Positions 22,987 through 26,196 of a stretch of 64,000 bases of DNA are shown here, in pieces. The position numbers and the translations under genes are program-made. Location: contig NZ_SSXE01000023.1 of assembly GCF_021699195.1 (NCBI RefSeq), positions 1 to 64,000 of the forward strand. Reading direction: 5' to 3'. A model generated the notes under the pieces. That model was not told the DNA's origin and did no database searches. It was given only the letters and a program-made list of their open reading frames with translations. This DNA comes from Nonomuraea sp. MG754425. Lineage in GTDB: Bacteria > Actinomycetota > Actinomycetes > Streptosporangiales > Streptosporangiaceae. Within the stretch, counting starts at the first letter, position 1; the number at the start of each line of letters is the position of its first letter.

Positions 22987-23763
22987 TTACGACCCGGTGG
23001 GCTCGGCCGCCGTCCTGAGGAGGCGGGCGACGACCGTCTCGGCGGGCCTGCCGAGCACCTGCTCCAGGTCGGGGGACCGCCGCTCCAGCGCGCCCGCGCG
23101 GATCTGTCCGTTGATCCAGCTCATCGGGCCGGAGCCGGTGTCGGGGACCTCCCGGTAGGTGACCCCCAGCGCCTGCGCCGCTTCAGGATGGGTCCAGAGC
23201 GGGCCGGTGAGGTCGTACGCGCGGCCGAGATGCCCCTCACCCGTCAGGACGTTCGCCGCGGCCTCGGCCAGGTCGGACCGGAACGCCGTGTTCAGGCCGC
23301 GTCCTCCGGTGCTGCCCGTCAGCTCCCCGCCGGCGACCCGTGGCAGGAAGGCGTCGCTGTAGAAGGGATGCCGCATGATCGTGTACGGCAGGCCGCTCGC
23401 CAGGATGGCCCGCTCCGTGGCGTGGTAGGCCGCGGTCAGGCCGGTCGCGGAGGTGTCGGCGTCCAGGAAGCTGGTGAAGACGATCGCGCCGACACCGGCG
23501 TCCGCGGCGGCGGACACGGCGGCCAGGTGCTGGGCGGTCCGGCGGGCGGTGTCGAGCTCGGGGGAGGAGATCAGCAGCAGGCGATCGACGCCCTCGAAGG
23601 CCGCGCGCAGGCCGGCCGGGTCGTCGTAGTCGCCGCGCCGCGCCGGTACGCCCGCCGGGGCGCGTGCGGGGTCGCGGACCACCGCCACCACCTTCGTCCG
23701 GGTGCGCAGGTGGTCGATGACGAGGCGGCCGAGTGCGCCTGAGGCGGCCGAGACGGCGATCAT
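22987..23763 (-). CDS. NAD(P)H-binding NmrA/QOR2-like reductase
   Basis: 258 residues. The Rossmann motif SAASGALGRLVIDHL near the N terminus and a VVAVVRDPARA cofactor-selecting strand fit the NmrA-like/quinone oxidoreductase 2 group of atypical SDRs. LPYTIMRHPFYSD and the later YREV segments match this group. It probably reduces a quinone or acts as a redox-sensing NADPH-binding protein. The ATG at 23763 is chosen because the Rossmann strand begins there and GAGGGAG lies upstream. Its downstream neighbour is unrelated. Confidence 0.82.
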   Translation of the reverse strand: MIAVSAASGALGRLVIDHLRTRTKVVAVVRDPARAPAGVPARRGDYDDPAGLRAAFEGVDRLLLISSPELDTARRTAQHLAAVSAAADAGVGAIVFTSFLDADTSATGLTAAYHATERAILASGLPYTIMRHPFYSDAFLPRVAGGELTGSTGGRGLNTAFRSDLAEAAANVLTGEGHLGRAYDLTGPLWTHPEAAQALGVTYREVPDTGSGPMSWINGQIRAGALERRSPDLEQVLGRPAETVVARLLRTAAEPTGS

Positions 23764-23825
23764 TGCGTGAGACTCCCTCTGGAACGGATGATCCAGTGGA
23801 CTCCCCGAACAGCCCACGCTGCCAC

Positions 23826-24593
23826 TCATTTTCCGGCCACCCGAGTCGCGCGCGTGACCGGGTAGCGCACCTCGAACCGGCTCGCGTCGCGGCGAGTGAC
23901 GTTCACCTCCACAACGCGCCCTTCGGCGATCCCGGCGGTGGCGATGGCCGTACGGGCGATGGCGAGCACCGGCACGCCCGGAGCAAGGCCGAGCAGACGG
24001 CCCTCGTCAGCGGTGGCGGGTCTGGAGCTGATCACGCCCTGCCAGGAGAGCGGGCCCCAGCCGAGTTCGCCCTCCATGCGGTCGTAGATACCACCGGGGC
24101 CGGTGTCGGGCTCGGCCAGCACGGTCCCCGCGGCCAGGTCGGTGGGGAGGTAAGAGGTCGCCAACTGGACGACCTGGCCGGTTTCGGGATTTCCCATCAG
24201 ACGGTCGCGAATGATCACTGGGTCGCCGGTCCGGAGTCCCAGCAGGTGGACCACATCGGGCGGGCAGGGTCCTTCGCTCACGGTGGGCGGTTCCACCGGC
24301 CGCAGGCCCTGCACGGCACTGCTGAAGTAGTAGCCGAGTTCGTCGCGGTACGCGTGTGTGTCAAGAGCGAGAGGATGCCGTTCGGGCTGCTCCCGAACAG
24401 TTGTGCCGCCCTTGCGGACGGGCAGGACGAGCCCCTCGGTGGTGAGCTGCGCGATCGCGCGGCGAATCGTGGTCCGACTGCAGCCGAACCGCTGCTCCAA
24501 CTGGCCTTCGGTCGGGATCTTGGTGCCGGGCGCATAGGCGCCTGCGGTGATGGCCTCGCGCAGGGCCTGAGCGACTTCATGCCAGCGCGCCAT
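23826..24593 (-). CDS. GntR-family regulator, HutC/UTRA type
   Basis: 255 residues. N-terminal winged helix-turn-helix (WHEVAQALREAI, KIPTEGQLEQRFGCSRTTIRRAIAQL, GLVLPVRKGGTTV, about 4-68) and a C-terminal UTRA ligand-binding domain (IIRDRLMGNPETGQVVQLATSYLP ... VEVNVTRRDASRFEVRYP). UTRA regulators respond to small metabolites. The gene diverges from the SAH-hydrolase-like/NUDIX pair over 104 bp with palindromic sites, so it very likely controls that pair. AAGGAGTC precedes the ATG. Confidence 0.9.
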   Translation of the reverse strand: MARWHEVAQALREAITAGAYAPGTKIPTEGQLEQRFGCSRTTIRRAIAQLTTEGLVLPVRKGGTTVREQPERHPLALDTHAYRDELGYYFSSAVQGLRPVEPPTVSEGPCPPDVVHLLGLRTGDPVIIRDRLMGNPETGQVVQLATSYLPTDLAAGTVLAEPDTGPGGIYDRMEGELGWGPLSWQGVISSRPATADEGRLLGLAPGVPVLAIARTAIATAGIAEGRVVEVNVTRRDASRFEVRYPVTRATRVAGK

Positions 24594-24620
24594 GACTCCT
24601 CCTTCGAATACGGGCCATTA

Positions 24621-24681
24621 CATCACTATCTATTGATGGTTAGGTCGGCCAAGCGGACACTCCGAATTAGGTAACTACCTA
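24621..24681. promoter_or_regulatory. Candidate operators in the GntR divergent promoter
   Basis: CATCA (24621-24625) and TGATG (24634-24638) form an interrupted palindrome. A perfect 14 bp palindrome TAGGTAACTACCTA occupies 24668-24681, 16 bp before the start of the divergent gene. GntR dimers bind sites of this kind; which one is used is unknown. Confidence 0.5.
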
Positions 24682-24697
24682 TTCCGAAGGAGGGATC

Positions 24698-25639
24698 GTG
24701 CTGGAGGACTTCGAGCGAGGACGTGTCACCGCGTTCTTCCGCCGGGTCGCTGACGCCATCCCCGTCATCGACCGGCCCTCAAGCCTGGCCATCACTCACC
24801 TGCTCGCCGAGCGACCGGCATTCCTGGAAGGAGTGGCTCGCCTCACCCACATCGCAGCCGTGCTGCCGAAACCACGCTCCATCAACGAGGCCGCGCTTCG
24901 CGCGGTTCGCACCAGCTTGCAGGTGGACACGCTCGACCGCGAACAGTTCGCCAACGCGGACTCCGCACTCGCCTACGTCGAGTCGCGAGCCGCAGGAAGG
25001 GACCTGATCCTGCTCGACGTCGGAGGCTACTTCGCTCCGGTCCTGGGCCACCTGCACGCCCACTTCACCGGTCGGATCATCGGAGTGGTGGAAGACACGG
25101 AGAACGGCCACCAACGTTACGCCGTACTCGACAAGCTGCCCTGTCCCGTCTTCAGCGTCGCCCGCTCGCCGTTGAAGGAGCCTGAAGATTATCTCGTCGG
25201 CCAAAGCGTCGTCTTCTCCACAGAGGCCCTCGTGCGTAGTCGGGACGACATCCTCAACGGCCGCCCGGCCTGCGTCATCGGGTACGGCAAGCTGGGCCGC
25301 AGCATCGCGGCCATGCTGCACGCGAAGCACGTCGGGGTCACCGTCTACGACGTTGATCCCGTGCGTCGCGTCCAAGCTCTCTCACAGGGGTACCGTGCCG
25401 CTGCCACGCTGATCGAAGCGCTCACCGGGGCCGGGATCGTCGTCTGCGCGACTGGAAACTTCGCCCTGCGGGAGGACGACTTCTCCCGTGTGGCCAACGG
25501 CGCCTATATCGCATCCGTGACCAGCAGCGACGATGAGCTCGAACTGTCGGCGCTCACCGGTCTGTACACGCGGACGCATATCGAGCCGCACGTCACCCAC
25601 TACGCCCGCACCGGGCACTACTTCCATGAAGCCTCATGA
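24698..25639 (+). CDS. S-adenosylhomocysteine hydrolase-like NAD-binding protein
   Basis: 313 residues. The C-terminal half has a glycine-rich NAD site VIGYGKLGRSIAAML (about 190-204), followed by VTVYDVDPVRRVQALSQGY and IVVCATGNFALREDDF, as in the cofactor domain of SAH hydrolase. The N-terminal half lacks the usual catalytic Cys/His signature blocks and the protein is about 110 residues shorter than SahH, so normal SahH activity is doubtful. GAAGGAGGG precedes the GTG start. Its stop overlaps the NUDIX start by four bases. A role in metabolite repair or modification together with that enzyme is an inference. Confidence 0.75.
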   Translation: MLEDFERGRVTAFFRRVADAIPVIDRPSSLAITHLLAERPAFLEGVARLTHIAAVLPKPRSINEAALRAVRTSLQVDTLDREQFANADSALAYVESRAAGRDLILLDVGGYFAPVLGHLHAHFTGRIIGVVEDTENGHQRYAVLDKLPCPVFSVARSPLKEPEDYLVGQSVVFSTEALVRSRDDILNGRPACVIGYGKLGRSIAAMLHAKHVGVTVYDVDPVRRVQALSQGYRAAATLIEALTGAGIVVCATGNFALREDDFSRVANGAYIASVTSSDDELELSALTGLYTRTHIEPHVTHYARTGHYFHEAS

Positions 25640-26196
25640 CAGTGACTTCCGAGGAGATCAGCGCCGTGCTGGCGCGCTACCTCGCCGCTCATCCCGACCG
25701 AGGCACGGACGTCGCCCGCTTGATCGCGGCGCTCGACTCGGGGCGGGATCTGACCTCACGTAAGACGTTTCCGCTGCACATCACCTGCAGCGCCGCCGTC
25801 GCCGCCGATGGCCGGGTCCTCGTGATCCACCATCGGACGCTGGATCGCTGGCTGCTCCCAGGTGGGCACGTCGAGCCGGAGGACCACAGCCTGTACGGCG
25901 CTGCCCTGCGGGAGCTGGAGGAGGAAACCGGTGTCGCCTGGCGGCGCGCCGTCTCGCCGCCGGCGTACGACGTCGTTCCGGTGGACGTGGACGTTCACGA
26001 AATTCCTGCCAACCTCGCGAAAGGCGAACCGGAGCATCTGCATGCCGACTTCCGGTTCGCCTTCCGGGTCGAGGACAGCGAGATATCCCTCCAGTCGGAG
26101 GAGGTGACCGCGTTCGACTGGCGCGCCCCGGCCGATCTGCCGACACCACGACTCGCGGGCGGCGCTTTCAGGTCGGGCGGCTGGTGGCCTGTGTGA
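25636..26196 (+). CDS. NUDIX hydrolase
   Basis: 186 residues. A NUDIX box GGHVEPEDHSLYGAALRELEEETGV follows the strand RWLLPG (about 74-100), with REL-EE residues correctly spaced for Mg2+ binding. The N-terminal 45 residues form a helical extension and VDVDVHEIPA lies in the variable loop. NUDIX enzymes cleave nucleoside diphosphates linked to another moiety. It is coupled to the SAH-hydrolase-like gene (ATGA). Its 3' end overlaps the 3' end of the convergent GxGYxYP gene by 29 bp. Confidence 0.88.
   Translation: MTVTSEEISAVLARYLAAHPDRGTDVARLIAALDSGRDLTSRKTFPLHITCSAAVAADGRVLVIHHRTLDRWLLPGGHVEPEDHSLYGAALRELEEETGVAWRRAVSPPAYDVVPVDVDVHEIPANLAKGEPEHLHADFRFAFRVEDSEISLQSEEVTAFDWRAPADLPTPRLAGGAFRSGGWWPV

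Follow-up and report, generated by a model that had tools for sequence, protein, structure and literature searches.

The locus in Nonomuraea sp. MG754425

The window analyzed here is the whole stretch of 64,000 nucleotides at positions 1 to 64,000 of contig NZ_SSXE01000023.1, from the 11.3-Mb draft assembly of Nonomuraea sp. MG754425 (GCF_021699195.1). Within it, a gene for a GntR/UTRA regulator diverges from a gene encoding a nicotinamide adenine dinucleotide (NAD)-binding protein related to S-adenosylhomocysteine (SAH) hydrolase (SAHH), and the latter overlaps a NUDIX hydrolase gene (Table 1). A preliminary description of the DNA had named these three genes, and open reading frames and Pfam matches bear out their positions and strands. 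The translational coupling it proposed for the SAHH-like and NUDIX genes is present as the ATGA overlap, and the NAD site it saw in the SAHH-like protein is kept, with a PF00670 score well beyond the cut-off of 27 bits. The SAHH-like and NUDIX genes are a real and widespread two-gene unit.

Table 1. Features of the regulator/SAHH-like/NUDIX locus (positions in the window)
Feature	Position	Strand	Basis
GntR/UTRA (HutC-type) regulator, 255 aa, divergent from the cassette	23826..24593	-	PF00392 67 bits, PF07702 48.9 bits
Operator-like box 1, ATTACATCACTATCTATTGATGG	24617..24639	.	Conserved in two orthologous promoters compared; putative binding site
Operator-like box 2, TTAGGTAACTACCTATT, near-palindrome	24667..24683	.	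Conserved in two orthologous promoters compared; putative binding site
SAHH-like NAD-binding protein, 313 aa, C-terminally truncated	24698..25639	+	PF00670 63 bits; alignment; residue mapping
NAD-binding GYGKLG (GxGxxG) motif, SAHH-like residues 195-200	25280..25297	+	Three glycines kept in 52/52 full-length relatives
TACTTC repeat at junction of 189-bp in-frame deletion	25619..25624	+	Comparison with N. candida
ATGA overlap (4 bases), SAHH-like stop/NUDIX start	25636..25639	+	Sequence
NUDIX hydrolase, 186 aa	25636..26196	+	PF00293 53.2 bits (cut-off 21.1); AlphaFold2 pLDDT 92.9; best Foldseek match 3fcm, a NUDIX hydrolase
Nudix box, GGHVEPEDHSLYGAALRELEEETGV	25861..25935	+	R92, E93, E96, E97 invariant in 45 aligned sequences
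Atypical NUDIX tail, possible right edge of cassette	26158..26196	+	Differs from 15 other aligned sequences

Pairing of the SAHH-like and NUDIX genes

A scan of named genomes with the patterns D[VI]GGYFAP and GV[VI]EDTEN returned 210 relatives of the SAHH-like protein, of which the 80 best-scoring were kept; nearly all are from Streptomyces and other Actinomycetota. Their neighborhoods were annotated with a simple gene caller of our own and one Pfam representative per family. In this co-occurrence check, a NUDIX gene lay directly downstream of the SAHH-like gene in 73 of the 80 loci, at a distance of -7 to +15 bases, mostly +5 or -4. Two of these 73 (L112 and L141) match the NUDIX query over the first two thirds only, and the seven loci without a NUDIX gene include one at a contig end (L102) and one where the SAHH-like copy itself is matched only to residue 326 (L082). 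The NUDIX protein of the window has the REUXEEXGU part of the Nudix box, with a preceding spacing one or two residues longer than in the strict form GX5EX7REUXEEXGU.

Other genes recur near the SAHH-like loci, namely those for an XRE regulator (32/80), a DUF218 protein (31/80) and a WbqC protein (30/80). At eight of the 80 loci there is a long operon that includes genes for a thymidylate-synthase-like protein, a carbamoyltransferase, an epimerase and a cytidylyltransferase and has the look of a pathway for a nucleoside or a nucleotide sugar. This operon is conserved in Streptomyces (L094, L115, L129, L133, L136, L146, L147 and L150), where it additionally encodes a methyltransferase, an APH-type kinase and a histidine phosphatase.

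Fold and active site of the SAHH-like family

The preliminary description held that the protein lacks much of SAHH and that a complete SAHH site would make it an ordinary paralogue. Structure prediction and residue mapping give a different picture, in which the relatives have the complete fold with an altered site and the shortness is a lesion of the window copy. The model of the full-length orthologue from Nonomuraea candida, built with 52 sequences, has a pLDDT of 90.8 and matches SAH hydrolases end to end (for 7zd9, Z 37.9 and root-mean-square deviation 3.5 over 359 residues). This whole-fold result is for the full-length relative L071, which scores 66.2 bits with PF00670; the window protein falls 63 codons short of it.

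For the active site, the 52 full-length sequences among the 80 relatives were aligned (L082 was dropped) and compared residue by residue with 11 canonical SAHHs encoded in actinobacterial genomes; the T276 row was a wrong pattern match and was excluded, and the D130, D131 and C195 rows fell in gaps. We use SAHH numbering, in which His301, His353 and Asp131 are catalytic. The equivalents of H55, K186, D190 and N346 are kept in all 52 relatives, as is the GxGxxG motif. H301 is replaced by Ser and T57 by Leu in 52/52, H353 by Val and E156 by Asp in 51/52, and D131 by Val or Ile, depending on the alignment. Because H301 and H353 are replaced despite the retained NAD motif and H55/K186/D190 equivalents, the full-length family members are unlikely to be ordinary SAH hydrolases. 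The C-terminal tail of SAHH, which caps the NAD of the neighboring subunit, is absent as well, the three family rows shown all stopping before it.

The family pattern extends to distant relatives: in a six-sequence alignment, H34, K160, D164 and S276 of the family are kept in Aeromonas, Rhizobium, Lactiplantibacillus and Staphylococcus proteins. The Photobacterium reading (L246) has no N-terminal part. SAHH-like proteins of other subfamilies (L056, L057 and L060) have longer frames, that of L060 running on into a second dehydrogenase-like part.

A deletion in the window copy

The closest orthologue of the window protein is that of N. candida (an identical protein is on NZ_JOAG01000004.1), which has 63 additional residues and 84% identity in the region common to both. 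In the N. candida gene, TACTTC and TACTTT stand 189 bp apart (L066, 9508 and 9697), where the window has a single copy followed by the end of the gene; compared with N. candida, the window gene has thus lost 63 codons through a 189-bp in-frame deletion. Full-length relatives have about 373 residues, and 79 of the 80 best-scoring ones are matched to residue 372 or beyond, so the C-terminal shortness is a deletion in the window copy and not a trait of the family. An assembly gap was considered and rejected, since the missing segment is found nowhere else in the assembly, while the same query detects it in 3/3 other Nonomuraea genomes (one of them the source of the query); the repeat of 5 to 6 bases at the join would also be too short for an assembly collapse. 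The tight junction with the NUDIX gene was not made by the deletion, because the relatives, too, commonly have an ATGA overlap or a short gap at this point.

The lost segment carries the NAVNF stretch with the equivalent of N346, an NAD contact in SAHH, and the last helices of the model. The window SAHH-like protein is therefore probably inactive, leaving the NUDIX enzyme and the regulator. In the remaining 309 residues there is one departure among the 89 columns with a conservation of 98% or more, and the pairwise ratio of nonsynonymous to synonymous substitution (dN/dS) against N. candida is 0.12. With so little decay in the rest of the protein, the loss appears to be recent. The still open reading frame, the single departure and the low dN/dS could also be taken to mean that the short form works, as a natural variant with a new role. 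We consider this very unlikely, given what the lost part contains and how consistently the relatives reach residue 372; a recent deletion accounts equally well for the low decay.

Regulator and promoter

The regulator has a counterpart of 81% identity at the same place in N. candida, and the promoter that gntR shares with the SAHH-like gene is a 104-bp region with two palindrome-like boxes. The preliminary description had noted two palindromes here: the boxes are present and conserved in relatives, but their palindromy by itself does not exceed random expectation (a score as high arose in 114 of 500 simulated sequences). Both boxes and the divergent gntR are conserved in the window, N. candida and Nonomuraea sp. 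SYSU D8015. In 54 Nonomuraea genomes, of which four have both boxes, box 1 has four matches with at most one mismatch, every one beside this type of gntR, and the exact pattern of box 2 occurs at four places, always in this kind of promoter. The fourth genome with both boxes, G332, has a SAHH-like remnant and NUDIX gene on a different contig from gntR, and two loci (L068 and L070) have neither an adjoining gntR of this type nor the boxes. The boxes thus follow the regulator and might be bound by it. On contig C2 of G332 (L250/L253), a GntR protein that is very similar by eye, together with both boxes, faces a different gene, which suggests that the regulator is a movable module.

A dedicated sensor, as first proposed, is plausible in Nonomuraea, but just 6 of the 80 relatives have a GntR of this kind nearby. 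Around the remaining ones, XRE or HATPase genes were found, or nothing that matched the queries.

On the left, an NmrA-like NAD(P)-binding gene (22987-23829) lies downstream of gntR on its strand. By our own gene calls, a differently sized gene occupies its position in N. candida, and the NmrA-like protein is probably not part of the unit. On the right, the 3' end of the NUDIX gene reaches 29 bases into the 3' end of a convergent GxGYxYP gene. The odd NUDIX tail, about a dozen residues, may mark the right edge of the cassette, at which it would have been inserted or cut.

Plasmid copies in Bacillota

On the Lactiplantibacillus and Staphylococcus plasmids that were read, the SAHH-like gene overlaps a gene for an HD-domain protein, with a major facilitator superfamily (MFS) gene near; Pediococcus plasmids show the same overlap. 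On one Lactiplantibacillus plasmid, for example, the genes for PadR, MFS, HD and SAHH-like proteins all point the same way. The HD protein is found in 148 plasmid records with E up to 1e-15 (120 at 60% identity or more) and the SAHH-like protein in 59, of which 52 cover 80% or more of its length; the records are near relatives of one another and do not represent independent events. Five plasmid records retain just the first 43 SAHH-like residues. An IS30 transposase gene stands at the break in both broken loci that were read, and one further plasmid locus has MFS and HD genes and no SAHH-like gene.

A 24.9-kb plasmid of S. epidermidis (L264, 270-10805) carries genes for a TIGR00730 protein, presumably LOG-like, and for HpaB, NUDIX, M24 peptidase, pyridoxal-phosphate-dependent, phosphoribosyltransferase, HD, SAHH-like and MFS proteins. 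This cluster looks like a nucleobase-analogue pathway, with a gene set unlike the tgs genes of 6-thioguanine. The idea that it makes 6-N-hydroxyaminopurine found no support in literature listings.

Loss of the SAHH-like gene

Breakage was counted in 341 genomes of the bacterial family, where SAHH-like copies of the NUDIX type number 23 of full length and 10 broken (10/33). This count omits a contig-edge copy (L194), copies of a subfamily without NUDIX (including the broken L184), L197 and distant matches (L195, L196 and those below 125 bits). The neighboring GxGYxYP gene, used as a control, is broken in 3 of 16 cases (19 matches minus 3 at contig starts), so no excess is evident (Fisher p = 0.50), and exceptional decay of the SAHH-like gene was rejected. 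Three further broken copies are found outside the bacterial family (L049, L054 and L055).

An intact NUDIX gene accompanies a broken (6) or short-remnant (5) SAHH-like gene at 11 loci, the remnants being just upstream of the NUDIX gene (L229, L230, L233, L235 and L239). A full SAHH-like gene stands without NUDIX at one or two loci (L172 and perhaps L197). Set against the share of gene length, this bias gives p = 0.06 or 0.15. If eight NUDIX genes that lack any SAHH-like remnant are added, one of which (L240) is a second NUDIX gene near a complete unit, the figures become 19/20 or 19/21, with p = 0.004 or 0.015; none of these p values takes relatedness into account. The set comprised 14 fetched loci, from which the lower-scoring L242 was dropped, and partial NUDIX matches (G572, G511, G464 and G481) were left out. 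In these counts, losses fall more on the SAHH-like gene than on its NUDIX partner, a bias that is no more than suggestive.

Comparison with known systems

The family resembles AhcY in its whole fold, its NAD site and its H55/K186/D190 equivalents; it differs in the replaced D131, H301 and H353, the absent tail, the length and the NUDIX or HD partner. The window protein, scored in its truncated form, reaches 69.2 bits with the adenosylhomocysteinase equivalog TIGR00936, against a cut-off of 497.6.

A parallel can be drawn with AgmF, the SAHH-like dehydratase of angustmycin A biosynthesis, in which H56, D129, K184, D188 and H299 are each essential by mutation (PMC8599513). AgmF is likewise SAHH-like and NAD-using, with a nucleoside as substrate and not SAH. 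When its five essential residues are mapped through SAHH numbering rather than by direct alignment, the H56, K184 and D188 equivalents are kept in our family, whereas D129 and H299, which AgmF requires, are replaced. By this comparison, the sugar-oxidizing side of the site looks kept and the side of the 5'-leaving group looks changed.

NUDIX proteins occur in the 6-thioguanine pathway encoded by the tgs operon, also a small purine-analogue cluster, although TgsA-F, as listed in that paper, do not include a SAHH-like enzyme (PMC7994395). The window GntR resembles HutC-type regulators in having both GntR and UTRA domains above cut-off, but it falls below the cut-off of all 25 NCBIfam families shown. 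With E up to 0.1 allowed, PADLOC assigned the SAHH-like protein to no defense family, its weak matches being to the NUDIX protein (PDC-S07, 18 bits) and to the helix-turn-helix of GntR. Among phage records there were two weak matches to the SAHH-like protein, both to an annotated ahcY. Our literature searches found no description of a SAHH-like/NUDIX unit, with AgmF as the sole lead, and the accessible text of a 2026 SAHH review mentions neither "SAHH-like" nor "dehydratase" nor "Nudix".

Interpretation

The reading we favor, tentatively and at a little under an even chance, is that a NAD-dependent SAHH-like enzyme, with a NUDIX partner and under GntR/UTRA control, modifies a nucleoside or nucleotide analogue at its sugar. 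The full-length enzyme would be a NAD-dependent oxidoreductase, or a dehydratase or epimerase working through a 3'-keto step. It would use the retained NAD site and sugar-handling Lys and Asp, while residues of 5'-leaving-group chemistry have gone. The coupled NUDIX enzyme would cleave a phosphate or diphosphate of the compound that its partner handles, or of one related to it, finishing or clearing it, and the regulator would sense the metabolite and control the shared promoter. The nucleotide-linked metabolite proposed in the preliminary description is in keeping with the gene context (NUDIX genes at 73/80 loci, HD genes on Bacillota plasmids and two kinds of nucleotide-type cluster), but context is not chemistry. 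Making and clearing of the compound both fit the present data and cannot be told apart.

Several points weigh against this reading. The replacements of D131 and E156 are partly built into the sample by the scan patterns (those of H301 and H353 are not), and that of D131, a gap in the 52-sequence mapping, rests on a separate alignment. The distant Agrobacterium relative L245 has Ala at D164, the D190 equivalent. A subfamily (L052, L053, L069, L180, L184, L186-L188, L190 and L198) shows no NUDIX gene in the stretches examined, so the pairing is not obligatory. The long operon is absent at 72 of the 80 loci, three of the eight operons have no NUDIX gene, and the neighbor annotation covered a part of the neighbors. 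Nor did we find an experimentally established function for any member of the SAHH-like family.

The rarity of the long biosynthetic operon is what inducible detoxification or self-immunity would lead one to expect: the SAHH-like enzyme and NUDIX (or HD) would destroy an incoming nucleoside antibiotic that GntR senses, and the PadR/MFS/HD/SAHH-like layout in Lactiplantibacillus does resemble a resistance set. If both enzymes were needed for this, however, roughly equal loss of the two would be expected, and the suggestive excess of SAHH-like losses points the other way. We regard detoxification as rather unlikely. The loss of the H301, H353 and D131 equivalents might instead indicate a pseudo-enzyme, binding NAD as a regulator or scaffold. 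This is improbable, since a scaffold would not need the H55, K186 and D190 equivalents that are invariant in the 52 relatives and in the six-sequence alignment, an argument qualified by L245.

An ordinary SAH hydrolase paralogue for methyl recycling would have the same fold and Pfam domain, but it is hard to square with the low TIGR00936 score of the truncated window protein, the replaced H301 and H353 and the missing tail in the family rows shown, and two other SAHH-related genes are present in the same genome (contig C105); we give it hardly any credence. A further possibility is that the SAHH-like enzyme converts a common cellular nucleotide into a toxic or signalling one in a single NAD-dependent step and that NUDIX, or HD in Bacillota, destroys the product, as a metabolic toxin-antitoxin or chemical-defense unit. 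Such a pair would account for the loss of the SAHH-like gene with the hydrolase kept and for the plasmid location, and we consider it quite improbable.

Family members carry the annotation adenosylhomocysteinase or SAH hydrolase, which they are unlikely to be; those of a Streptomycetaceae plasmid and of many Lactiplantibacillus plasmids are examples. The family points to small gene sets whose probable role is to make or clear unusual nucleotides. Its altered SAHH-like active site poses a clear chemical question, and the family can serve as a marker in the search for new nucleoside antibiotics or resistances.

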